Assembly: GCA_030424665.1 (NCBI GenBank)
Contig: JAUHWN010000026.1
Coordinates: 1-34,160, forward strand
From: Bdellovibrionia bacterium
Lineage (GTDB): Bacteria > Bdellovibrionota > Bdellovibrionia > Bdellovibrionales > JAGQZY01
DNA length: 34,160 nt
Direction of reading: 5' to 3'
A program made the position numbers and the translations under genes. Shown here piece after piece: positions 3,899 to 31,047 of this stretch; within the stretch, counting starts at the first letter, position 1, and every line of letters begins with the position of its first letter. The notes beneath the pieces were generated by a model that saw nothing but the letters and a program-made list of their open reading frames with translations, was not told the DNA's origin and did no database searches.

Positions 3899-4927
3899 AT
3901 GAAAATTTTAAATGGTCTCTATGATTTCAAGCATTTCGATTTATCTGTAATTGATTTGGATAGCCGGGTTTTAAAAAAGAATCCCCTGGGTGATCCGACC
4001 AGTAGACGGCATCCTGTTCTCATTCCAAAGTCGCGAACGATCAATTCAAAATTTCCTGTTGTGCTCATACTCTCTGGTTATTTAGGGAATGGAGATTTTC
4101 GTTTTAATTTAAAGGCTTTTGAAGAGAATCAGCCCCAACAGATAGACCGTCTAGTTGGTTCAAAGAAGGCACCGCCGGCTCTTTATGTTTTTGTTGATGC
4201 TTTTACCTATTGGGGAGGGAGCCAATTTATCAATAGCGCTCTTTGTGGAAAGTACGAAGATATGATTGTTAAAGAATTGGTTCCCAAAATCAAAAACGAA
4301 TTTCCCGTAGATGATATCGGAAAGAAGTGGATGGTCATGGGTGGATCGAGTGGGGGGTATGGAGCACTTCACCTATCTTCAAGTCATCCTAAAGTGTTTC
4401 CGTGGGCCATTGCCTTGGCCCCTGATAGCCTTTTTGAAGTGAGTCTTCTGCCCGAACTTTATGAGGCTCAAACCGAGATAGCTAATCGTGGTGGTCTTAA
4501 AGAGACCAGCCGGCTTCATAAAAAGGGCAAGCTTTTAAAATCAAGGAATGGTTTTAAGGTATTAAATGCACTTGCCATGTCAGCTTGTTATGGCACGAAA
4601 AAGTGGCACGATAAACTTCCACATTTTCCGTTTAACACGGACACTTTAGAAATTGATGTCGGAGAGTGGAAAAAATGGCTGGAAAGAGATCCTGTACGTT
4701 TTATACCGCGACGAAAAAAGAATGTTAAGCTGCTGAAGGGTATATACCTGGCTTGCGGAAAAAGAGATCAATTTCAACTTCACTATGGAAGTCGGCGAAT
4801 TCGAACGTCCCTTAAGATGATGAATGCCAAAAATGTTTATGACGAATTCGATGGTGGGCACTTTGATTTAAGTACACAATTACCCAATGCACTTTCATGG
4901 CAGGCTAAAAAATGGAGGATGGTCTGA
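3899..4927 (+). CDS. Putative esterase, alpha/beta hydrolase (esterase D family)
   Basis: 342 residues with no signal peptide, so probably cytoplasmic. A hydrolase core strand (FPVVLILSGYLGNGDF, about 52-67) is followed by a nucleophile elbow GGSSGGYGA with Ser151 in G-x-S-x-G, and by the likely acid Asp290 (ACGKRDQF) and His321 (DGGHFDLS) near the C-terminus. This is the layout of the Esterase_D/Fes/S-formylglutathione hydrolase group (Pfam Esterase). The substrate cannot be told from sequence. It begins 14 bases after the diguanylate cyclase stop but has no Shine-Dalgarno and a -10-like TAAAAT just upstream, so it may be transcribed separately. Its stop codon lies inside the stem of the following terminator. 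Confidence 0.8.
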   Translation: MKILNGLYDFKHFDLSVIDLDSRVLKKNPLGDPTSRRHPVLIPKSRTINSKFPVVLILSGYLGNGDFRFNLKAFEENQPQQIDRLVGSKKAPPALYVFVDAFTYWGGSQFINSALCGKYEDMIVKELVPKIKNEFPVDDIGKKWMVMGGSSGGYGALHLSSSHPKVFPWAIALAPDSLFEVSLLPELYEAQTEIANRGGLKETSRLHKKGKLLKSRNGFKVLNALAMSACYGTKKWHDKLPHFPFNTDTLEIDVGEWKKWLERDPVRFIPRRKKNVKLLKGIYLACGKRDQFQLHYGSRRIRTSLKMMNAKNVYDEFDGGHFDLSTQLPNALSWQAKKWRMV

Positions 4928-4968
4928 AGATTTTAAGATCTTGAATAGACCATCCATTTTTTATTTTT
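4917..4968 (+). terminator. Rho-independent terminator after the esterase
   Basis: GGATGGTCT (4917-4925) pairs perfectly with AGACCATCC (4947-4955). A second inner pairing AAGAT/ATCTT extends the hairpin, and ATTTTTTATTTTT follows. The stop codon of the esterase is within the left arm. Confidence 0.85.
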
Positions 4969-5037
4969 CTAGAGAATTGTCCCTTGTTTTCTTCAATAAT
5001 TTCATGGGGTTTCGCTCAATAGAATTTGTATATAAAT

Positions 5038-5066
5038 TTGACAGATATCCCTTGTAAAACTAACAA
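5038..5066 (+). promoter_or_regulatory. Candidate promoter of the large repeat protein
   Basis: A perfect TTGACA (5038-5043), a 17-base spacer and a weak -10, TAACAA (5061-5066), about 50 bases upstream of the GTG start at 5115. Confidence 0.45.
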
Positions 5067-5114
5067 AACTTAAGTATTACAAGCACCTAATGCAAAGCGT
5101 TATGAGGTGAAGTT

Positions 5115-8100
5115 GTGTCTGTTCGGCTTTTAATTAAAAAGTTTGTTGGTTTTTTCCTACTCTCTTACTTGGTCTTTTCAAGTCAAGCTTGGAGTTACCA
5201 AGTTCAATCGCGGAGTGCTTGTTATCGCCCTCCTGAAGTGGGTTACCCACTGAAGATGGAAATGCAGGTGAGTTTGCAAAAGCTCAATGAACTTGGTTTG
5301 GTACCTGACTTTGTACTTTTTGGATTTAATAGTGAGCCGACTAATAATTTTGAATTAAAAGTCTATGTAAAAAATCGAATTTCCGAAACCAAAGACCTCG
5401 TATTTAAAAAGCAAATGACCCGTGAGGAACCTGTATTCAATGTCTCGATTGATCAAATTCGCTCAAAGGCCTACAGTGAAGTCAGCCTAGAAATAAAAAT
5501 TTCAGAGAAACAATCTGCAATTGGTTTTATCGTGGTCAATGGTGCATCTACTGAGCTTGTTGATCTGATGACATTTTATGTTCCTACCAAAGAAAGTGGC
5601 GCGGATCTTCACGAACAATACAATGAGAAGTTGCTACTTAATAATGAACTCAATGAAGAAGCTGTGGCGATCGATCAATCAAGTCTACTCATGGCAAACG
5701 AGGCAATCCAGGTCGAAGAAAAACACTTTGAGTGTGACTGTGCTAACAACAAAATTTGTGAAGGCATGTACGCGTTCAAATATGAAGATACGGCTCCCGC
5801 TGGCCTTCCTGAGTCACAACTTGGTGGTTTTTCTGGGACCGTTGGTGCGCTTTCGATGGTGAGTCCCTATAAAGATCTTTTGTCAGAAACAAATATCTTT
5901 CCCAAAGCATATATCGTACGAAGTGTAAATGTTGATTCTGTCGTAATTAGTCCAAAAGACTCGTTGGAGCCCGAGTATCAGGTTAGCACCGAAGATGTTT
6001 TTTCGGTTTGGCCAAGTGATAATGAGAATTTAAAACCAGTGGGTACGACGGCTTTAGTACCAAATTTAGGATATGGACTTGGCCGTTTGATGCTCGATGA
6101 TAGTCTTTTGGTAAACACAGGTGCGACTGAGGGTGGTCCTCTAACCAATGGCCTAATGAAGGTATCAGTGGTGGGATATTTGCCAGTCAAGGGACAATAT
6201 CAATATCGAGCTATGCTATTAAAGGTTGAGGCGGACGCTCTTAATCCAGATTCATTTGACTATAATTCTAGGCTCGAAACACCTTTATATATGGTGGCGG
6301 CCGGTGATCACTATTTGTTTTACGACGAAGATAACCTTTGTGGTCAAGTTGATGACAAAGAAGTTTGCGTCGGCGATAAACTTCTAAGAGGGACTGACGA
6401 AGAGTTAGAAGTTTTTGCCATGAACCCTCGAGCTGCGGCGATTACTCCCGTAGAAATTTGGGCGGAAACAATGCCTCTAACGCCTATGATAGGTGGCCCT
6501 AGTTTTCTAGCAAGATCAAAACATCGAGAAGGTGATTTCTACGCTGTAAACTTACCTGATATTCGATATACGCACGACATATTCTTCGGCGTTGAAGATC
6601 GAACGACGGTAGCTTCTTTCGGTCTATCAAGAGGTGACCTCATCAAGACAGTTGTTGATGATAGAGAACTTCGGGTACTTGGTGCTAATGGTAAAAAAGT
6701 TGTTCTTGTAGATACTGAAAACAAAACCGCAGTCAGAGTAGATATTGAAAGCGACAAGTTTTATCGCGAAGGCACTTGTAAGAGAGAGCTTTGTCCGGGA
6801 ACTCGAATTGCCAACATGAAGATGCTTGGCGAGACGATGGCGGGTAATTTCTTGTTTGAGGTAGAAACTGCTAGTGGCGTTAGCCGAGTTGCCATTGAGA
6901 GATCCTTCCGCTTTGAAGCTTCTAACCGCTATCAAGATCAGGTCTGCGATAGAGAAGACAAAGTTTGCAACGCAGACATAGTCATGGCTTTAGTAAATGG
7001 TCAATTGACCGAAGTCAATGTAGCGGCACTCAGCACTGTTTTAGGTGAATATCTCGTTACCGTAGTCAATTCTGAAGGAAATACCGAGGTGGTAAGAACG
7101 TCGGGTGGCGATCGCAGCCTTCAATTTATTGGAAACCAATCATCCTGTAATGACGAAAGTCAGTGTTATCTCTTTAAACTTGGTTCTGATAGAGAATTCG
7201 CAGTAAGAGGTCTTGCTAAAACTTTTGATGGCAAAAACGAAATCGTCTCTGTCAATGGCGAGTACCTCTATCTTCCTCTCGGAATTAGTTTTGAAAATCT
7301 CGGTGGCTCCGGTCCTTATAAGACATATATTGATCGAACAAACATCCAAAATTATGAAATAAAACCACTTTCGGATGTGGATGAGAGTTACCTTGTGGGT
7401 TTTTATAACTCTGAAGAGGGAATGCGATCAGTTGCATTGACTGTTAAAGGTGGAGTCGCTGGCTTTAGTTTTCAAGCGCCAAATGTATTGTCCTTTAAAG
7501 ATGGTGCGTGCACGAGTGTGAGTGGCTTTTGTGTCGGTCAAGAACCAGGTCAAGGTGACGATGGCCTATATATTTCTGATATAAGATTAACAGGTGAATA
7601 TTACCTGAGTGGACTTACTAACGTCGAAATGAAATTGAATCAGCTCGACTTCAAAGTCTACGAAATGGGAACGGAAATCCTCTATAGAGCGAGCCAGGAT
7701 TCGATGCCTCGATTCGTAACTCCTGTGGGTCGAGCAAATTACTTGCTTCCGTATTCCAATGAGAAGTCAGTCATTATTGTGGAAACTGAAGACACGACTG
7801 AACTCTTTGTAGCAGACAACAGCAATCTGATTCCAGCTGAGACCTGTGTTCACGAGTTCTGTGAGTATTGGAATAACAGAAGTTTAGGTTTCCAAATTTT
7901 GAATCTTAACGACGATGGTATGATCGTCATAGAAGATGCAGCCGAAATGGGTGCATTGGGCCCTGGTCTCAATATAGAGCCAAATGCTTGTGTCGAAGGT
8001 AATGGCCAAACTCTTTGCAATGGTTCTAGAGTTTATAGAAAGTCTCAAAGAGAAGACCTCAGCTTCGACGGTATTGTTGTTGGCTCTTACCAGGATGGTT

Positions 8101-8723
8101 CTCGGACCAAGTTCTTACTTTCGAGCCAAAGCGGCGATACAGTTGGGCAATTGGTTCAAGGAGTTTTAAGTAATACCGTAATCAAGGCAGAGGGTTGTTC
8201 GGATATGAATGTATGCGCTGGTGATGTGATCTACTCGCAAGGAAATATCAGGGTCGAGTACTTTGGAAACTATGTGCAAAGAGATCTTGAGATTTTTGCG
8301 CTTCTATCTAGTAATGATTTCGAAGAATTTGATGGTCAGTTTATTAGCGAGGGTTGTCTGCAAGATGGTATCGATGATCTTATTTGTGTCGGAGAAGAGT
8401 ACCGAGTGAACTATGTAGACCGTTTAGGTGGAGTTACTGCTTCAGTCCTCATTGGTTTTAAAGAAAAAGCTAATGGTCAAAGGAAAGCAATCTTTGTTCC
8501 AACGACGGGTGAATACCTAGGGGAGATGTTTCAAGCTGACCTAAAGGATCGAGATGTTTTCTTGGATCGAATTCCGACCTATTGTCAGCTCAATCCAGAG
8601 TTGCGTTGTTCGGAAGAAGATAAGGATGTTTCGGCTGACAATGTTTTTTATAGTGAATTTATTAATGATCTAAGTGGTTTTTATTCACAGTCTCAAGAGC
8701 CTGTGATGAGTCTCCCTCATTAA
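5115..8723 (+). CDS. Large exported protein with ten paired-cysteine repeats, function unknown
   Basis: 1202 residues. It starts at GTG with GAGGTGA (5104-5110) four bases upstream. The N-terminus is a Sec signal peptide (two lysines, then FVGFFLLSYLVF, cleavage near SSQAWS at about 26). After an N-terminal domain with C36 and a CDC-N-rich cysteine cluster near 206-215 come ten short motifs of the form C-x4-9-C, often followed by x-G-[DES]. They begin at about residues 409, 555, 611, 677, 799, 911, 958, 1028, 1082 and 1157. Between them are beta-rich stretches with alternating hydrophobic residues. The cysteines probably form local disulfides in the periplasm or on the surface. There is no lipobox, no autotransporter barrel and no recognised enzyme motif. 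It is monocistronic, between two terminators. I do not recognise the family. A repeated small beta-barrel architecture is an inference. Confidence 0.9.
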   Translation: MSVRLLIKKFVGFFLLSYLVFSSQAWSYQVQSRSACYRPPEVGYPLKMEMQVSLQKLNELGLVPDFVLFGFNSEPTNNFELKVYVKNRISETKDLVFKKQMTREEPVFNVSIDQIRSKAYSEVSLEIKISEKQSAIGFIVVNGASTELVDLMTFYVPTKESGADLHEQYNEKLLLNNELNEEAVAIDQSSLLMANEAIQVEEKHFECDCANNKICEGMYAFKYEDTAPAGLPESQLGGFSGTVGALSMVSPYKDLLSETNIFPKAYIVRSVNVDSVVISPKDSLEPEYQVSTEDVFSVWPSDNENLKPVGTTALVPNLGYGLGRLMLDDSLLVNTGATEGGPLTNGLMKVSVVGYLPVKGQYQYRAMLLKVEADALNPDSFDYNSRLETPLYMVAAGDHYLFYDEDNLCGQVDDKEVCVGDKLLRGTDEELEVFAMNPRAAAITPVEIWAETMPLTPMIGGPSFLARSKHREGDFYAVNLPDIRYTHDIFFGVEDRTTVASFGLSRGDLIKTVVDDRELRVLGANGKKVVLVDTENKTAVRVDIESDKFYREGTCKRELCPGTRIANMKMLGETMAGNFLFEVETASGVSRVAIERSFRFEASNRYQDQVCDREDKVCNADIVMALVNGQLTEVNVAALSTVLGEYLVTVVNSEGNTEVVRTSGGDRSLQFIGNQSSCNDESQCYLFKLGSDREFAVRGLAKTFDGKNEIVSVNGEYLYLPLGISFENLGGSGPYKTYIDRTNIQNYEIKPLSDVDESYLVGFYNSEEGMRSVALTVKGGVAGFSFQAPNVLSFKDGACTSVSGFCVGQEPGQGDDGLYISDIRLTGEYYLSGLTNVEMKLNQLDFKVYEMGTEILYRASQDSMPRFVTPVGRANYLLPYSNEKSVIIVETEDTTELFVADNSNLIPAETCVHEFCEYWNNRSLGFQILNLNDDGMIVIEDAAEMGALGPGLNIEPNACVEGNGQTLCNGSRVYRKSQREDLSFDGIVVGSYQDGSRTKFLLSSQSGDTVGQLVQGVLSNTVIKAEGCSDMNVCAGDVIYSQGNIRVEYFGNYVQRDLEIFALLSSNDFEEFDGQFISEGCLQDGIDDLICVGEEYRVNYVDRLGGVTASVLIGFKEKANGQRKAIFVPTTGEYLGEMFQADLKDRDVFLDRIPTYCQLNPELRCSEEDKDVSADNVFYSEFINDLSGFYSQSQEPVMSLPH
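6339..8609 (+). repeat. Coding repeat: ten C-x(4-9)-C motifs at about 45-150 residue intervals
   Basis: Examples are CGQVDDKEVCVGD, CKRELCPGT, CTSVSGFCVGQ, CVEGNGQTLCNGS, CSDMNVCAGD and CLQDGIDDLICVGE. Most are preceded by a hydrophobic-x-x-[EG] stretch and followed by a predicted strand. The repeats are diverged in protein sequence and not recognisable as DNA repeats. Confidence 0.7.
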
Positions 8724-8743
8724 TTTGGTTCTAGAAATTTGAT

Positions 8744-8776
8744 AAAAAAAGGCTGAGTTTTAACTCAGCCTTTTTT
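8744..8776. terminator. Bidirectional rho-independent terminator
   Basis: A7, then GGCTGAGTT (8751-8759), loop TT, AACTCAGCC (8762-8770), then T6. The A-run and T-run make it work on both strands, between the convergent repeat-protein and ggt genes. Confidence 0.95.
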
Positions 8777-8779
8777 GTT

Positions 8780-10438
8780 TTAGAACCCTCCTGCGGCTCC
8801 TTCGCCGCGAGAATCGAAACTGGCTTCGAGCCACTTCTTATCATTGATTCGAATGGCTTGAACTTTTGAATGCCAGGACTCCTCTATTTTGTGACCTTTT
8901 TCACGTAACAAGTTGAGGACGTCAGGAGAGTGCCTCTTAGTATCGACATAAAGGGTATCGGGTAAAAATTGGTGGTGAACTCGAGGCGCTTGAATGGCCC
9001 AATCAACATCATAGCCGTTAGCGAGAACTCGATACAGAGTCAGTAAAACGCCGTTAATAATTCGAGGTCCTCCGGGAGCGCCAACTGACAAAACGGCTTT
9101 GCCCTTTTTGGTGACGATAGTTGGACTCATTGAGCTCAATGGTCTCTTGCCCGGCTGTACTAAGTTACCTTGGCCTTGAATAAGGCCATAAAGGTTGGGT
9201 TCTCCGGGACGGGTTGTAAAGTCATCCATCTCGTTGTTAAGAGAAATTCCATATTTATCTGAGGCGACATGAGCGCCATAATTTCCATTGAGGGTTACAG
9301 TGAGACTTACGGCATTTCCATTTACATCCATAACATTATAATGAGTTGTTTCTGAAGACTCCGCCGGAGGATTATCCTCTGTTAATGGAGTCAGTGCGAG
9401 GGTGCCATCGGTCTTAATTTTTTCGCCAAGTTCGTAAAGGTATTGATCGCTTGTTAGCTTCTCAACGGGGTTTTTGTGAAAGCTTGGATCACCTAGGAGA
9501 GCTCTTCCGCGGAATACTATTTTTTGAACTTCAGCGAGTAGGTGAAACTCTTCAGCACTTAATGTTGGTTTTTCGTCGACTTTTAGCTTTTCTAAGAGTT
9601 TTAAGGCCGCCTTTATAACTACACCACCGCTACTCGGAGGGGGCATTAAATTTACCTCAAAACCTTTAAAGTTTGTTTTTAGAGGCTTTAGCCAACGAGG
9701 TTTGTAGGACTTCATATCCTCGATAGTCATATGACCACCAGCTTTTTTAACACTATTCACGATGTCTCGAGCTACGTTCTCTCTATAGAAAGGCACAATA
9801 TTTCTATTTCTCATTTCTTTGAGAACTTTTGCCAACTTAGGCTGTTTCATGAGTTCGCCTGGCTTGTAGGGATTTTTACCTTTCTTTAGAAAAACACTTT
9901 TGGCTCCCTTGTTAAAACGTTGAGCGGCACGCTCTGTGTTTCTCGCCCACTCACCACTTACTTTGAACCCTTTTGAAGCTATTCTTATGGGGTAGGTAAA
10001 GAGCTGGCTCCACTTGAGTTTACCGTATTTTTGGTGCATTTCCCAAAGGCCAGCGGGAACTCCGGGAACTCCGACTGCCGTTCCGCCAAATTTTGAAGCG
10101 TCTTTAGATTTGTCCATATAATATTTAGGGCCCGTGTTTTTGGGGGCTGTTTCTCTGAAGTCGATGACATCAACATCCTTCTTTCCCATTTTAATGAGGG
10201 CGAAGCCACCGCCGCCAAAGCTTGCATTGTAGGGGTTAGTTACGGCAAGTGTAAGGCCTATTGTCACGGCCACATCCACCACATTTCCGCCTTTGCGAGC
10301 AATTTCCTCTCCGGCTTCAACGGCAAATGGATTAGGGGAGGTCATTAGGATTTTTGAGCCTTCAAATGGAACTGCTCCGGACTGGAGTGTGAAAGTGGTT
10401 ACTAGGAGAACTGTAAAAATGTGAATCTTTCGCATCAT
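8780..10438 (-). CDS. ggt: Gamma-glutamyltransferase precursor
   Basis: A 552-residue periplasmic Ntn-hydrolase that cleaves or transfers the gamma-glutamyl group of glutathione and related peptides. The N-terminus is a signal peptide (MMRKIHIFTVLLVTTFTLQS). Family blocks include EEIARKGGNVVDVAV, NPYNASFGGGGFALI, DFRETAP and the autoprocessing site ETTHYNVMD. The first Thr of TTHY (codon at 9347-9349, about residue 364) becomes the N-terminal nucleophile of the small subunit. The glycine-rich PLSSMSPTIV and GAPGGPRIINGV blocks follow. The frame is open 21 codons upstream, but AAAGGA precedes the ATG at 10438 and the signal peptide starts there. It diverges from trmB. Confidence 0.95.
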   Translation of the reverse strand: MMRKIHIFTVLLVTTFTLQSGAVPFEGSKILMTSPNPFAVEAGEEIARKGGNVVDVAVTIGLTLAVTNPYNASFGGGGFALIKMGKKDVDVIDFRETAPKNTGPKYYMDKSKDASKFGGTAVGVPGVPAGLWEMHQKYGKLKWSQLFTYPIRIASKGFKVSGEWARNTERAAQRFNKGAKSVFLKKGKNPYKPGELMKQPKLAKVLKEMRNRNIVPFYRENVARDIVNSVKKAGGHMTIEDMKSYKPRWLKPLKTNFKGFEVNLMPPPSSGGVVIKAALKLLEKLKVDEKPTLSAEEFHLLAEVQKIVFRGRALLGDPSFHKNPVEKLTSDQYLYELGEKIKTDGTLALTPLTEDNPPAESSETTHYNVMDVNGNAVSLTVTLNGNYGAHVASDKYGISLNNEMDDFTTRPGEPNLYGLIQGQGNLVQPGKRPLSSMSPTIVTKKGKAVLSVGAPGGPRIINGVLLTLYRVLANGYDVDWAIQAPRVHHQFLPDTLYVDTKRHSPDVLNLLREKGHKIEESWHSKVQAIRINDKKWLEASFDSRGEGAAGGF

Positions 10439-11242: not shown

Positions 11243-12634
11243 TTATTTGCAGATTTCACGATCAACGTAATTCGTTTTAATGGGATGTTTGTACTCAGGC
11301 CGTGCGCCAAACATTCGAGAGAGCTGAACTTCATCATTAGGAAAGAGATCTCTAAAAATCGAATCTTTTAGTTGATCTTGAATGCTGAATTCCAAAGGCG
11401 TATCGAGCAGAAGTGGCTCTTCTGAGTTAGTTAGGTAGCTCTGCCAAGTCAAAATCTTACTTAGGAAGTTGACTTGGATACCTGAAAATATTTGCATGGG
11501 GATGGGCCCGGCGGCGAAACCATTCTTCATAACTGCAACTCCTTGGCAATCTGAATGAAAGCGAAAATCAAATTTCACATTGTTTTTGAAAGACAATTGA
11601 TCCGAAGGCTGCTGGACGATTTTTCCATCGACATAGATGGACATTAAGTTTGCAGGGTTTTCGTTTGAGTAAACAAATTGCCTTCCTAGTGGAGCGTCGA
11701 CGAGATAAATCAGTTCATTTGTTGAGACCTGAAGTTCATTGAACCCTTTTAAGTAAACTAAAGAATTAGAGGAGAGTGGGTCTTCCGTTGAAATTGACAG
11801 AAAAAGTTTGCCCAGACCGGTATCTTCATCGAATTGGTGTGTGAGTTCGAAAGATAAAGTTTTCTTTTTTTCGATGGGATAGAGGAGTCTAAATTTTGGG
11901 CTAAAATATTTCTCTCCGGTTTTTGCTAAGGCGTAAATTCGACAGTAGAAGGGTTTATTGGCGTATTGTCGGCCTTTGTTGATCAGTTCAGAGAGATTGA
12001 AGTTATTGATTTGATCAACTTCAAGAATTTGTACTCCATCGTCACAGAGAAGTTGTGTTTGGCCAGAAACTCCGGGTAGTCCTGTTATGCGATAGTGGGC
12101 GGAGTTCTGACTTAAGAGAGTTAAGTTATTGTCTCCCAGAGAGTTATTAAAAGATTCATCGGTGATATTAAAATGATAAAAGTCATCGGTACCTCCAATG
12201 TCCTTTTCTCCAAAATCAAAGATAACACTGTCCCGATTGAGTAAATTGAGTTTGAGTTTAAAAAAGCAACTGATCTTACTTTCTTTTGCTGTTGGTTTTA
12301 GTATTTCTTTTAGAGGAAGGGTGTCGGCTACAAGGGGACTTTGCTGGGAATTGAACTTTGTTTTTATTTCTTTAAAGCGGTGGTGCCCTTTGGAGCACTG
12401 TGATTTTATTTCAAAACTTCGCCAAGGATTCGAGGGGTTTTGTTGAATTTCTATTTTTTGATTAATATTAATTTCCGGTGAATTAAAAAGCGAACTTGCT
12501 ATAACCTCAATTTCTTTAGTTTTGTTTTCAATGACTTCTGGATTTTGATTTTTGTTTTCGGCCCAGTTTTCTCCACAGGCACTCAAAAATAGGATTGCGA
12601 ACCCAGCGGTAAAAAATCGTTCGATACTAATCAT
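11243..12634 (-). CDS. Lipoprotein of unknown function
   Basis: 463 residues from the ATG at 12634, which has AAGGGGGAAG two bases upstream. The longer open frame to 12700 would overlap the ferredoxin gene and has no ribosome site. The N-terminus is a lipoprotein signal, MISIERFFTAGFAILFLSAC, with the lipidated Cys at 20. The rest is rich in Asn, Ser and Glu and has scattered cysteines (CSKGHHRFKE, ISCFFKLKL, LLCDDGVQ, FYCRIYAL, DCQGVAV, REIC at the very end), suggesting several disulfides in an extracytoplasmic beta-rich protein. I do not recognise a domain. It lies 59 bases downstream of the ferredoxin gene in the same direction. Expected location: outer or inner membrane facing the periplasm. 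Confidence 0.85.
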   Translation of the reverse strand: MISIERFFTAGFAILFLSACGENWAENKNQNPEVIENKTKEIEVIASSLFNSPEININQKIEIQQNPSNPWRSFEIKSQCSKGHHRFKEIKTKFNSQQSPLVADTLPLKEILKPTAKESKISCFFKLKLNLLNRDSVIFDFGEKDIGGTDDFYHFNITDESFNNSLGDNNLTLLSQNSAHYRITGLPGVSGQTQLLCDDGVQILEVDQINNFNLSELINKGRQYANKPFYCRIYALAKTGEKYFSPKFRLLYPIEKKKTLSFELTHQFDEDTGLGKLFLSISTEDPLSSNSLVYLKGFNELQVSTNELIYLVDAPLGRQFVYSNENPANLMSIYVDGKIVQQPSDQLSFKNNVKFDFRFHSDCQGVAVMKNGFAAGPIPMQIFSGIQVNFLSKILTWQSYLTNSEEPLLLDTPLEFSIQDQLKDSIFRDLFPNDEVQLSRMFGARPEYKHPIKTNYVDREICK

Positions 12635-12693
12635 AGCTTCCCCCTTAATTTGTTTATAGGTGCTTGGATTAGCAAATTTGTTGCCAGGTCCTA

Positions 12694-12978
12694 TTACCAA
12701 TAGGCAGCATCAACCCGCAGATCTCCGAGAATTCGGCAAAGGCAACTGACCCTTTGATCCGGCTTTAAACCCTCTTTTTTGGCCAAAGTAATTTCTTTCT
12801 CACCAGGTTGGCTAAGGTTTTCTTGGCCTTCGAGGATTTGTAAAACACAATGGCCACAGACTCCATCGAACTCACAGGAATTGGCTACCGGTCGTCCAGC
12901 ATTTTGGACGGCTTTCATTAAATTCTTATTTTTAGGAACTTCAATTTCAGTCCCGTCAACGAAGGATAGTATTGGCAT
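12694..12978 (-). CDS. [2Fe-2S] ferredoxin
   Basis: A 94-residue electron carrier. Cysteine ligands follow the plant/adrenodoxin-type pattern: C35-x5-C41-x2-C44 (CEFDGVCGHC), with the fourth at C79 in RVSCLC. The preceding GRPVANS and the C-terminal LRVDAAYW are also family-like. The protein is a single domain. No strong Shine-Dalgarno precedes the ATG. A -10-like TCTAAG (minus strand, 12986-12991) ends seven bases before it, so it too may be leaderless. It diverges from the SDR gene, and a redox link with the nearby oxidoreductase or thioredoxin reductase is possible but not shown. Confidence 0.9.
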   Translation of the reverse strand: MPILSFVDGTEIEVPKNKNLMKAVQNAGRPVANSCEFDGVCGHCVLQILEGQENLSQPGEKEITLAKKEGLKPDQRVSCLCRILGDLRVDAAYW

Positions 12979-19393: not shown

Positions 19394-20659
19394 TTAGACC
19401 CCTTCTAAATTTAGAGAGTAACTAAGTTGTATTTCATTATTTTCAAGTTCTGTAACATTTAAGCCCTTTTTGATGTTAAGGGCCTTAGTATAATGATCCA
19501 CTAGACTCAGACCGAGTCCTTGGCCCTTTTCCTTTTTAGTTCCTATTAAGGAAGTTAAATTTGAATGAGAGCTTTGAGATAAATTTTTTAGATGATAGGC
19601 ATCTGCGGTATTTACAATCTTTACCATGATCCGAGATTCTTCGGCCTTAGTAGCGCTTAGATATATCTTCGAGTGAGGTTTGCTGAATTTGATCGCATTA
19701 CCTAAGAGGTTACTTAAAATTTGATGCACAAAAGCGACGGGCTCTGTTTTAACCTTTAAATTCTCGTCTTCAATGCTGGTTTCAAGGCTTATGAATTTAT
19801 GGAGGAGATCATCATTAAAAATCATTTCAGTTTTTTTGAAAATGCTAGAGAGATGGACTTCACTTAAATGGGTGTTTTCTGTTGGAGAGTCAATTTCTCT
19901 GGAGCGTTTTAAATTTTCTATTATTTCATTAATTGAAGTAATGGAAGCTTCAAGATTCACAATCGATTTATCTTCTTCGCCCAATTGTGACTTGAGTTTA
20001 TGGAGGGAAAAAGTTGACCTATTTAAAGCATTGTTAATGTCATGAGATATTACTTTAAAGAGCATTTCATTGTCGGAGTTGCATTTCCGGATTAGTTCGA
20101 CAAATTTTTCTAGCCGATCCTCTTTTGAGTTATCAATTTTTGCGTATAGGAATAGAAGTGTGATTGTTGTTACGAATGATAATAAAATAAAAATAGCCAG
20201 CTCATTGCTCATGGCTACGATGTAGGAATCAACTTCTGTATGGTAGAGTTTTGCGCTAACAACGCAAGACAAGAAACTAAGTATGCAAAGAAAGGAAAAA
20301 AAGAGGGCGTGGCGACTTTTTAACACGATAAAGGCGGTCGTGATCATGGGAGCGACTAGAAAAATATCCGTAGCATAGGAGAGCGGGTTTAAAACCCCAT
20401 TCATGGTAATCATAATTAAAATGTAAACGAGCGCGAAAGCTCTAATCAAATAAGACTTTGTCTTCCAGTACCCAATCAGGAATAGGAGTGCAGCGGCGGT
20501 AGATTTCAAATATTCGATTGGCAACTCGTTAATCGAAGGGTTCTGCCAAATCTTTAGAAGTAGAAAATAAAAACTAAATGCAAACCATAGAGTTAAAAAT
20601 ACATAAGTTAGGTTGTCTCTCTTTGTATTGCTTTCTTGAGCAGGAGAAATATTTAACAT
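19394..20659 (-). CDS. Membrane-bound sensor histidine kinase with degenerate G1 box
   Basis: 421 residues. Six predicted membrane segments lie between about 17 and 172 (a 6TM sensor with short loops), then a linker, the phosphorylation box VISHDINNALNR with His206, and an ATPase domain with N box LSNLLGNAIKFSK and G2 KGQGLGLSLV. The G1 box is unusual: where D-x-G-x-G is expected the sequence is VNTADAYHLKN. ATP binding may be altered, although G2 and the N box are intact. The gene starts 51 bases after the second permease gene and has GAGGA upstream of its ATG. No response regulator is adjacent. Its place in the transporter locus suggests it senses a related condition (inference). Confidence 0.9.
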   Translation of the reverse strand: MLNISPAQESNTKRDNLTYVFLTLWFAFSFYFLLLKIWQNPSINELPIEYLKSTAAALLFLIGYWKTKSYLIRAFALVYILIMITMNGVLNPLSYATDIFLVAPMITTAFIVLKSRHALFFSFLCILSFLSCVVSAKLYHTEVDSYIVAMSNELAIFILLSFVTTITLLFLYAKIDNSKEDRLEKFVELIRKCNSDNEMLFKVISHDINNALNRSTFSLHKLKSQLGEEDKSIVNLEASITSINEIIENLKRSREIDSPTENTHLSEVHLSSIFKKTEMIFNDDLLHKFISLETSIEDENLKVKTEPVAFVHQILSNLLGNAIKFSKPHSKIYLSATKAEESRIMVKIVNTADAYHLKNLSQSSHSNLTSLIGTKKEKGQGLGLSLVDHYTKALNIKKGLNVTELENNEIQLSYSLNLEGV

Positions 20660-28539: not shown

Positions 28540-29406
28540 ATGAAATTCAAAACTTATTTCTTAAGCCTGTTCGTATTCGTCTCTTTCGTCTATATGACTG
28601 AGGCGGCGCAAGCAAAGTACACGGGCAGACTTGTAAAAGGCACTTGGAGAAAGTCTTGGGATAATCAGCTCAAGCATTTAATTCATGATGTCTACAGATC
28701 AGATTTTGTTGATCACCACGAGAGCCAAATCGATGAACTTTGTCCTGGCTATAAGAGTAGCAATGCAAAAAGAGAAGTCTTTTGGCATCAGCTTTTTGTC
28801 TCTTTAGCATGGAAAGAAAGTCTTCATGGCCCGCGGAATTGGGTCAACTTTAATGGTGGAAAGAATATTGGTCTTTATCAGATTAACCCGGTTCTTCGCG
28901 GTGCCTACGGTTGTGGTAGAGTCGATCTATACGATGCCATTAATAATATAAACTGTGGTGTTAAGATGGCAAAACGCCTTATCGATAAGTACGGAAGTTT
29001 TCTTCAGGGAAGAAAGAGTGGTATGGCGGCCTATTGGCAACCACTTCGAGCCACCTCCAACTACAATCGCAGAAATCGATCTCGCATATTATCAGAAGTC
29101 ACTAACGCCTGTAAGTCAGGTAGAGTTTCCTATATCAGTACGAACTCTACTCTCGTGTGGATGTTCGAAGATATGCTCAAAGGTCGAACAGTTAACACTA
29201 TTCACGACTTACCAGAAGAAGATCTACAAAAGGTCTTGTGGGATCACCCAAATGCTCTTGATGGCGGGGACCCTGGTGACGAGCCTATAAAGGTTTATCA
29301 AGAAGGTGAGCTGAATAATAATGTTAAGCCCGATTTTAGGCCTCACTACATCGATGAAGATGAGCAAGTCATGATCGACGAAGCAAGAGGTCCGATCGAT
29401 ATCTAA
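28540..29406 (+). CDS. Secreted lytic transglycosylase (SLT domain)
   Basis: 288 residues. A signal peptide (FKTYFLSLFVFVSFVYM, cleavage near AAQA at about 25) sends it to the periplasm. The SLT-type lysozyme-like domain has the catalytic Glu93 in AWKESLHGP and the GLYQIN motif at 111-116, then NCGVKMAKRLIDKYG and AAYWQPLR. It should cleave peptidoglycan between MurNAc and GlcNAc, forming the 1,6-anhydro end. Cysteines (ELCPG, YGCGR, INCGV, NACKSG) may form disulfides. The C-terminal 70 residues are acidic and of unknown role. A G5 run (AGGGGGT) precedes the ATG. Followed by a terminator. Confidence 0.88.
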   Translation: MKFKTYFLSLFVFVSFVYMTEAAQAKYTGRLVKGTWRKSWDNQLKHLIHDVYRSDFVDHHESQIDELCPGYKSSNAKREVFWHQLFVSLAWKESLHGPRNWVNFNGGKNIGLYQINPVLRGAYGCGRVDLYDAINNINCGVKMAKRLIDKYGSFLQGRKSGMAAYWQPLRATSNYNRRNRSRILSEVTNACKSGRVSYISTNSTLVWMFEDMLKGRTVNTIHDLPEEDLQKVLWDHPNALDGGDPGDEPIKVYQEGELNNNVKPDFRPHYIDEDEQVMIDEARGPIDI

Positions 29407-29432
29407 TTTTTGAGTTTTGATATATTGTAAAA

Positions 29433-29460
29433 GGTGGGATTAAGGTCCCGCCTTTTTTTT
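29433..29460 (+). terminator. Rho-independent terminator after the lytic transglycosylase
   Basis: GGTGGGA (29433-29439) pairs with TCCCGCC (29446-29452) including one G-T wobble; loop TTAAGG, then T8. Nearly identical to the terminator at 30180-30206. Confidence 0.92.
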
Positions 29461-29634
29461 GCTCACTCTAGCGCAAAGAATTGCATCTTCCTGATGTCGA
29501 CTAGGTAACTAATCTAGCAAAAAATTTCTTTTTTTTTAACTTATTAAAGAGTTTGCGCAGTGCTCGCAATAATTCATTTTTAGACTGATTCGTTCAATGG
29601 TACAAGCCGACCAATTAATCAACTGGGAGCTCGA

Positions 29635-30150
29635 ATGATGTCTAAAATTATGTCTGCTATACTATTTAATTTCCTTATCCTCATTTCGGTAAATGCATAT
29701 TCAAACCAATCTGAAATTTGTGTCAAAGCTGTGGTTTCAGATATAAATCATCAGGTCAGAGCTTACCTGAGTTGTGATCTTTCTCAAAATTTAACTTTCG
29801 AAGATCATCGAGGTTATTGGTCTTGCAGAGCTGAAACACAGTCTGGAAAAAAGACTTTTGAGGTTTTTACCCGACCGGAGAATTTTGGGTATGATTTTCA
29901 AAAACAGCACGCTTATGTGGACTATCCTCTGACGTCTCGAACATCTCTTGGGAAATCAATCTTTCGGGCTCTTGGAGTTCCTAATACCCATCAGGGAGAC
30001 TTGTTTAAACTCTTTATTGGAACTAATCGCCCTTATTATGAGAAGATAAATCTCTTTTTTTCTCCTCATGAAATTCAGAATATCGAATTTAATAATGAAA
30101 TTTTGATCATGACACTGGCAGCGCCATTTTTTGGGCGATGCGAATTTTAG
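29635..30150 (+). CDS. Small secreted protein of unknown function
   Basis: 171 residues with a signal peptide (KIMSAILFNFLILISVNAYS) and cleavage near residue 24. The mature part has four cysteines (EICVKA, LSCDLS, WSCRAE and GRCEF at the end), so two disulfides are likely. GGGAG is seven bases upstream of the ATG. No domain recognised; composition suggests a small mixed beta protein. Transcribed alone, between two related terminators. Confidence 0.8.
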   Translation: MMSKIMSAILFNFLILISVNAYSNQSEICVKAVVSDINHQVRAYLSCDLSQNLTFEDHRGYWSCRAETQSGKKTFEVFTRPENFGYDFQKQHAYVDYPLTSRTSLGKSIFRALGVPNTHQGDLFKLFIGTNRPYYEKINLFFSPHEIQNIEFNNEILIMTLAAPFFGRCEF

Positions 30151-30179
30151 AATCTTTTAGTTTCATAAAATTGCGAGAA

Positions 30180-30206
30180 GGTGGGATTAAGGGCCCACCT
30201 TTTTTT
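30180..30206 (+). terminator. Rho-independent terminator after the small secreted protein
   Basis: GGTGGG (30180-30185) pairs with CCCACC (30194-30199), then T7. It differs from the terminator at 29433-29460 at two of 22 positions; one difference turns a wobble pair into a T-A pair. Confidence 0.88.
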
Positions 30207-31047
30207 ATGGGTTCTGCGGAGTCGGACTGGAGTTCGGAGTTTGAGGTTGATTGACGATCCGACCACCTGACCCGGGGAACTCTTCGTGCATATAACACTC
30301 CATCATTTCGATCGTGAGAATCGTTTCGACGGGAGGAGGTGTTTGACTGGGGGCCCCTTGCACACCTTGGCCGACGATGGAGTAGAGTTTGCCATTATTT
30401 GGATCTTGCCTTACAGCCATGTGATAGTTGGCTTCTGAGTCTGCTCCCGCTTTAGGTGCATAGTTGATGATGGTGAGTCCATTGGTTTGATTAGTAATTC
30501 TTTTTTGGAACTCATAGTTGTTGGTTTGCGCGGCATTTAATAGCCGTCCGCTGGTTGAATCATAAATCCCAAGCTTGATATTAGCAAAGAATTGGCCGTT
30601 GTCCCGTCTAATTTGCACGTCAGCGACTTCTCTATTGCCGGTATTGTCGTCTATCCGATCTCCTCGGCAGAGAATTTCTGAAGCGCTAAAGTCGGCGCGA
30701 TCAAAAAGGAGCTCTTCATACAGGGCCACCTCTTTGTTGTGATCGGCAATGATGGATTCACTAATGGGTCTGGGTGTAATGTCTAAGCAATTTTCTCGAG
30801 TGAGGTGAGGCACCCCACCGATTATTGTAACTGTAGATACTGGCTCCATAATGCTGGTAAAGCAATTATTGAGTGTATCAAAGCTATTGTATTGGACACC
30901 GCTGTAACCTTCTCCGTTACTGAGTTGATTATTATTATCAACGGAACTCGAAGTTTTTGTTCCTTCAAGTTCTTCGCAGTTGGTATAGCCGAAAAGTAGT
31001 ATCCCGCTTAGGAGTATTAGACTGATTAAGTTAATTTTAGTTTTCAT
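30205..31047 (-). CDS. Lipoprotein of unknown function
   Basis: 280 residues from the ATG at 31047 (AAAGG eight bases upstream; a GTG two codons earlier is too close to it). The signal LISLILLSGILLFGYTNC ends in a nonstandard lipobox, Y-T-N-Cys24, a form I associate with Bdellovibrio-like lipoproteins (from memory, not checked). A low-complexity linker (Ser/Asn/Asp) follows. The folded part has cysteines in LNNCFTS, RENCLDI, EILCRGD and ECYMHEEF; the tail is Pro/Ser/Asn-rich (NSSPTPQNP). No domain recognised. Its upstream region shares a two-box element with the unit starting at 32252. Confidence 0.82.
   Translation of the reverse strand: MKTKINLISLILLSGILLFGYTNCEELEGTKTSSSVDNNNQLSNGEGYSGVQYNSFDTLNNCFTSIMEPVSTVTIIGGVPHLTRENCLDITPRPISESIIADHNKEVALYEELLFDRADFSASEILCRGDRIDDNTGNREVADVQIRRDNGQFFANIKLGIYDSTSGRLLNAAQTNNYEFQKRITNQTNGLTIINYAPKAGADSEANYHMAVRQDPNNGKLYSIVGQGVQGAPSQTPPPVETILTIEMMECYMHEEFPGSGGRIVNQPQTPNSSPTPQNP

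Follow-up and report, generated by a model that had tools for sequence, protein, structure and literature searches.

The window analysed here is the whole stretch of 34,160 nucleotides of contig JAUHWN010000026.1 from a Bdellovibrionia bacterium (GenBank assembly GCA_030424665.1; the class Bdellovibrionia belongs to the phylum Bdellovibrionota). Its plus strand carries at 5115-8723 a gene for a protein of 1202 residues with repeated cysteine pairs. What are these repeats, and why does the middle of the gene differ so strongly from that of its closest relative? We consider it moderately probable that the protein is an exported tandem array of Tudor-like domains, a giant and strongly diverged relative of a Bdellovibrionota unit family, braced by disulfides, with multivalent binding and a recombined middle.

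The open reading frame (ORF) begins with GTG at 5115 and its stop codon ends at 8723, as a preliminary description of this DNA had read it. A motif resembling a ribosome-binding site, GAGGTGA, precedes it at 5104-5110 (+). The congener has an intact orthologue of 1209 residues (locus L003), which is 84% identical over the full length. Hydropathy in 19-residue windows reaches its maximum of 1.71 at the N-terminus (windows starting at residues 1-5), and the best value beyond residue 60 is 1.36. A probable signal peptide without cysteine would cover about residues 1-28 (5115-5198), with cleavage near its end. This hydrophobic N-terminus is the one feature that supports export, which the preliminary description had claimed; the dedicated surface or periplasmic role suggested with it may apply. 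From residue 29 onward the protein is acidic, with 177 Asp/Glu against 101 Lys/Arg among 1174 residues. Residues 29-206 (5199-5732) form an N-terminal region with a single cysteine, C36, with no cysteine pairs and no family match.

The cysteines follow a regular pattern. Ten C-x4-9-C pairs had been described, and all ten are present: C409-x8-C418 (CVGD; 6339-6368), C555-x4-C560 (6777-6794), C611-x6-C618 (in the unit of residues 608-676, 6936-7142), C678-x5-C684 (7146-7166), C799-x6-C806 (7509-7532), C911-x4-C916 (7845-7862), C959-x8-C968 (7989-8018), C1028-x5-C1034 (CAGD; 8196-8216), C1081-x9-C1091 (8355-8387), and C1157-x7-C1165 (8583-8609), all on the plus strand. A cluster of C207, C209, and C215 (5733-5759, +) adds C209-x5-C215, giving 11 spaced pairs among the 24 cysteines of the protein. 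The pattern is far beyond chance: when 24 cysteines were placed at random 20,000 times, 11 pairs never arose (mean 2.2, maximum 8). All 24 cysteines are conserved in the congener, even within a segment of 44% residue identity. That the pairs are often followed by x-G-D was overstated, since this holds for two of the ten; x-G follows six of the ten. The repeats are undetectable by self-BLAST of the protein, which gave no hit, and at the DNA level the repeats are short two-copy families only.

Searches with the entire 1202-residue protein returned no match in Pfam, NCBIfam, or PADLOC, no match in phages, and nothing better than E 0.49 among PDB sequences. Nor did Pfam reveal a fused peptidase. 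PHROGs gave one weak match to a family of unknown function (E 0.0048, residues 495-548), and part of the protein matched DUF6383 at 0.039. Among the papers listed by literature searches, none treats these repeats in Bdellovibrionota, and the passages searched in PMC11656739 and PMC3123361 are not relevant to them. The earlier statement that the protein cannot be matched to a known family is thus correct for the whole chain against curated families, but its units are likely to be of the exported chromo/Tudor-like kind that PMC5906684 describes. A paralogue search, proposed earlier as a check, was run with the whole protein at E 10 and found none in its own genome. Across 368 genomes of the phylum, the same query gave 11 rows with E 0.006-0.1 besides the two genus members. 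The two longest ORFs were inspected at 10 of these 11 loci (all but L030), and the matches were mostly chance-like; one of them, L035, led onward. The pattern CxGDxV gave 22 matches in the window's genome and 10 in the reversed control. These were mostly unrelated proteins; the pattern nonetheless led to a protein at L022.

L035 (residues 1004-1051, E 0.097) and L022, a protein that is encoded in the window's own genome and begins with a signal-like stretch, were the starting points for a family of units. Their units open with GC-x4-C-V-G-D-x-V or a near variant. Three seed units reached 39 of the 368 phylum genomes and a 30-unit profile reached 85; 160 units were collected from 52 ORFs among the loci read. 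The first cysteine of the pair is present in 115/125 units and the second in 121/154, counted over units with the column filled. Against PDB chains, the best match of the 30-unit profile was KDM4C (2.4e-4), and PHF20L1 followed at 0.0029 and 0.0047. One of 36 PDB rows lies below 0.001 and four lie below 0.01, and 26 of the 36 are named KDM4 (JMJD2), PHF19/20/20L1, or TDRD1/3. Proteins of these three groups are known for their Tudor domains. With single units, the best Pfam matches were Agenet at 1.6e-4, which is below the curated cut-off, and Tudor_2 at 0.0038, and NCBIfam gave one row at 0.028. Aromatic residues occupy model columns 14, 20, 34, 38, and 48 in fractions of 0.47, 0.33, 0.55, 0.46, and 0.59 of the phylum units. 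The family has no Pfam or NCBIfam model of its own and is present in 85 of the 368 genomes sampled from this phylum of predators.

In viral contigs, two patterns gave zero and four stretches, none of them with tandem units. The unit model matched three of these four: L103 at E 5e-6, where a single unit-like stretch contains one cysteine, L104 at 0.024, and L102 at 0.048. Plasmids and phages gave no match to a two-unit query. In another genome of the phylum (L067, 1-7001), a minus-strand ORF encodes 1103 residues with nine Tudor/Agenet-like units, nearly all of which lack cysteine pairs. PMC5906684 describes exported bacterial chromo-like domains that occur in tandem, some with cysteines, in lineages including delta-proteobacteria; its section 8 predicts that they bind methyl-lysine-like groups of the murein or of a matrix. 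It is probable that the unit family is of this kind, a link that is drawn by the present analysis.

Does the 1202-residue protein belong to this family? An enlarged model was built from phylum units without including the protein itself, and scores were compared with those of 1000 shuffles in which the cysteines were fixed in place. The best unit, residues 964-1011 (8004-8147, +), scored 10.3 bits, and the three best units summed to 16.9; none of the 1000 shuffles reached either value (maxima 7.3 and 2.6). The second-best match, residues 1027-1044 (5.0 bits), lies at the pair opened by C1028, and the profile also fits in register at residues 416-427, by C409-x8-C418, with 1.6 bits. In six of seven hits, a cysteine of a pair was aligned on a cysteine column of the model. 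Among 252 ORFs of at least 350 residues in 0.72 Mb sampled from its own genome, the protein ranked second both for the best unit (third, 3.1) and for the three-best sum (third, -3.4). It stood behind L107, a unit of which had seeded the model. When a core model without cysteines was applied to the ten segments between pairs, with segments lacking a hit set to -8, the sum of -11.5 exceeded all 300 shuffles, narrowly (best -11.7). A profile-profile alignment of the protein and its congener orthologue with the family scored 21.1, above 60/60 shuffles, with a probability of only 8.9%. The protein has the tandem cysteine-pair joints of the family, with loops of 4-9 residues that are longer than the usual 4, and a unit-like signal beyond composition and cysteines, whereas its whole-sequence score does not rise above shuffles.

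Structure prediction of a single repeat, also proposed earlier, was made for residues 608-676 from four rows, all of them from the protein and its orthologue. It gave five strands at a mean predicted local distance difference test (pLDDT) score of 57. SH3 and Tudor domains came out on top when this model was compared by VIA-align (Z 5.0-5.5). The unit profile and this model derive from different sequences and indicate the same fold. We regard a barrel fold of the Tudor-like SH3 type as likely for the units.

Several results weigh against fold and kinship. A VIA Z below 8 may reflect a mere common arrangement of strands, Foldseek found no match to the model at E 0.001, and the confidence of the model is low (mean pLDDT 57); the model of the C-terminal 304 residues is lower still (pLDDT 35). 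At E 0.01, the unit profile gave one match in the window's genome (G000), at C212 and not in the 1202-residue protein. The whole-sequence score of 1.5 with the enlarged model was attained by 136 of the 1000 shuffles, and with the 30-unit model the best unit was reached by 16 and the whole score by 41. The signal in the cysteine-free test is carried by three of ten segments (reached by 0, 11, and 0 of 300 shuffles); one of these is out of register, and two segments are without a hit. On balance, barrel fold and kinship are supported but not proven, and the likeliest identity of the repeats is that of a diverged version of the exported C-x4-C tandem unit. The data are best read in line with the earlier picture, as small disulfide-pinned domains joined in a chain, now with a likely Tudor-like SH3 barrel fold and with disulfides that are predicted from the cysteine pairs. 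An orphan repeat protein is thereby given a likely fold.

The second part of the question concerns the middle of the gene. Window and congener DNA have a median identity of 93.3% (219 bins of 150 bases), and inside the gene, identity falls to 51-64% in bins 7051 to 7650, with the DNA elsewhere about 94% identical. The corresponding protein segment, residues 646-838 (7050-7628, +), is 44% identical to the congener, with a proportion of silent differences (pS) of 0.77 and of replacement differences (pN) of 0.37. Identity is 98% (pS 0.24) for residues 1-250, 90% (0.45) for 251-550, 80% (0.68) for 551-645, 95% (0.31) for 839-1139, and 83% (0.26) for 1140-1202. Identity recovers sharply on the right, at about 7630, and declines gradually on the left, over about 1.2 kb. 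Selection on residues alone is inadequate as an explanation because the silent sites are saturated too. This pattern is most simply read as replacement by the sequence of a divergent allele, and its gradual left side may mean that there was more than one such event. In the same two genomes, the L022-type protein behaves similarly, with its units at residues 195-330 56% identical (pS 0.71) and flanks 95% identical (pS 0.31-0.36).

As a control, both genomes were sampled for 128 reciprocal best pairs, of which 111 passed 60% identity and 150 columns. An inner 60-residue window of at most 62% identity between flanks of at least 85% was found in two of the 111, namely the 1202-residue gene and the L022-type gene, both included on purpose; it was found in none of the other 109 sampled pairs. 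Two more pairs were low (22% and 48%) at the extreme N-terminus, where stop-to-stop ORFs may include an untranslated leader. Two observations count against the main reading. The lowered identity left of the segment (residues 251-550 and 551-645) is not that of a clean cassette, and other genera do not consistently show the greater variation in the units. Ten genome pairs of such genera gave 15 comparisons, among which some genes recur and which are not independent; conservation was lower in the unit region than in the N-terminal part in 11 of them and higher in four. Unit proteins of G016 and G027 are 53% identical against a median of 85% for their neighbours, and those of G004 and G007 differ less than their neighbours (94-95% against 87%). 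A universal hypervariability of the units was considered and is unsupported, four of the 15 comparisons being opposite. A donor copy of the middle segment was sought in five genomes of the genus and family (G000, G075, G072, G073, and G074) and was not found; the matches were to the gene itself, in G000 and G075.

Other explanations can be weighed against these data. Instead of SH3-type barrels, the repeats might form other small beta structures, such as Ig-like domains, propeller blades, or a fold not seen before, with a cysteine hairpin at each joint, the likeness to the unit family being limited to the C-x-G turn. The poor scores of most single units with the unit profile and the low confidence of the structure models fit such a fold, but the cysteine-free core test, the rank among natural proteins, and the independent structural likeness to SH3/Tudor domains do not, and we regard it as rather unlikely. 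A divergent middle could also arise as an assembly chimera, since both genomes are drafts (260 contigs in 4.43 Mb for the window's genome; the congener is a metagenome-assembled genome) and the right edge at about 7630 is sharp. This is improbable: the frames are open with 24/24 cysteines in place, identity declines gradually on the left over about 1.2 kb, a second gene of the unit family has the same pattern, and even a chimera would need a real divergent allele.

It is somewhat unlikely that the array is anchored in the envelope and binds peptidoglycan or matrix, as exported bacterial SH3 domains do, and that its middle reflects relaxed constraint and not selected variation. Binding of murein or matrix peptides is predicted for exported chromo-like domains in section 8 of PMC5906684, and pN/pS is higher in the segment than in its flanks. 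However, at a saturated pS of 0.77, the DNA of the segment has been replaced or is much older than the flanks, and none of the 109 other sampled orthologue pairs shows the inner-segment pattern.

If the diverged, recombined Tudor-like array is the right reading, the protein would be exported, possibly by the Sec route, and its cysteine pairs would be oxidised outside the cytoplasm, where disulfides could brace the joints between barrels. After the N-terminal region, small barrels with the SH3 fold, of the Tudor/chromo type and some ten or more in number, would follow one another, most of them opened by C-x4-9-C. This stiff acidic rod, placed in the envelope or outside the cell, may present many weak binding sites to a ligand. 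In one of the two sister species, homologous recombination via the conserved flanks would have replaced the middle barrels by a divergent version, which would fit a region in contact with prey, phage, or neighbours. A broader and tentative proposal, which we think may well not hold, is that exported Tudor-like arrays serve the Bdellovibrionota as a recognition system in which recombination exchanges barrels between lineages, with the 1202-residue protein as a giant, fast-diverging member. If true, a cell-surface variation system would have been made from a fold that eukaryotes use for chromatin reading, and this protein would have kept the cysteine joints and lost most of the other family signature. 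A gene segment exchanged or diversified between two sister lineages makes the question of which ligands exported barrels bind testable.

The gene lies among leuS, trmB, and genes for a GGDEF response regulator, an esterase, and a gamma-glutamyltransferase. Upstream, the esterase gene ends in a terminator-like hairpin followed by a T run (4917-4955, +; arms 4917-4925/4947-4955, loop of 21 nucleotides), and a two-way terminator-like hairpin separates the 1202-residue gene from the gamma-glutamyltransferase gene (8745-8776; arms 8745-8759/8762-8776, loop of 2 nucleotides). The consensus terminator scan omits both because these loops are outside its range of 3-8. A consensus scan of 4800-8850 for sigma-70-type promoters gave minus-strand sites only and none on the plus strand. 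Of the promoter and terminators of its own that the gene was said to have, the terminators thus have candidates on both sides and the promoter does not. The esterase neighbourhood was compared in five other genomes. The order from esterase to gamma-glutamyltransferase is kept in G072, G073, G074, and G136 and not in G006. In the slot between the two (window 4917-8776), G072 and G073 encode a cation efflux protein that has a zinc-transporter dimerisation domain, in place of the 1202-residue gene; G136 has an ORF of 352 residues there, and G074 has no ORF of at least 180 residues. The gene was found in two of 140 genomes of the order, the window's own and one congener, and clearly in these two alone among the 368 of the phylum. 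Since two of 140 genomes carry it in a conserved neighbourhood, it looks like a genus-level gain without a constant partner.

Further loci in the window also vary. Downstream of trmB, a minus-strand ORF of 477-489 residues occupies the same place in the window (11243-12700), L096 (10809-12239), and L097 (8876-10342); the window protein had no blastp match to its L096 and L097 counterparts at E 1e-6 and no Pfam match. A histidine-kinase-like gene at 19394-20659 (-) lies among oligopeptide-transport genes where congener bins fall to about 50%; the congener lacks a counterpart there, and tblastn gave no match in the 39.5 kb compared. At about 29400-30240, the congener either lacks some 0.8 kb, including an ORF at 29635-30150, or cannot be aligned over it.

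Among known systems, the Pfam families Agenet and Tudor_2 resemble some phylum units at the level of the fold, whereas the 1202-residue protein itself has no Pfam match. Both families are known chiefly from chromatin readers of eukaryotes. The unit proteins of Bdellovibrionota (for example L022/L107 of the same genome, and L067) share with it a signal-like N-terminus, an opening cysteine pair in most units, and the strand pattern after it; the L022-type protein also has a variable unit region in the same genome pair. In contrast to them, the units of the 1202-residue protein are far more divergent and longer, with longer cysteine loops, and its N-terminal region is another one. The exported chromo-like (Tudor-like) proteins with SH3 folds in PMC5906684 resemble it in export, which is probable for the present protein, in small SH3-type barrels arranged in tandem, which are supported but unproven for it, in cysteines that likely form disulfides in some members, and in lineages that include delta-proteobacteria. 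They have 2-6 tandem chromo domains, and classical bacterial SH3 proteins 2-14 domains, against some ten or more here. Set beside these proteins as described there, the 1202-residue protein is distinguished by a regular C-x4-9-C pair at nearly every joint and by its divergent middle.

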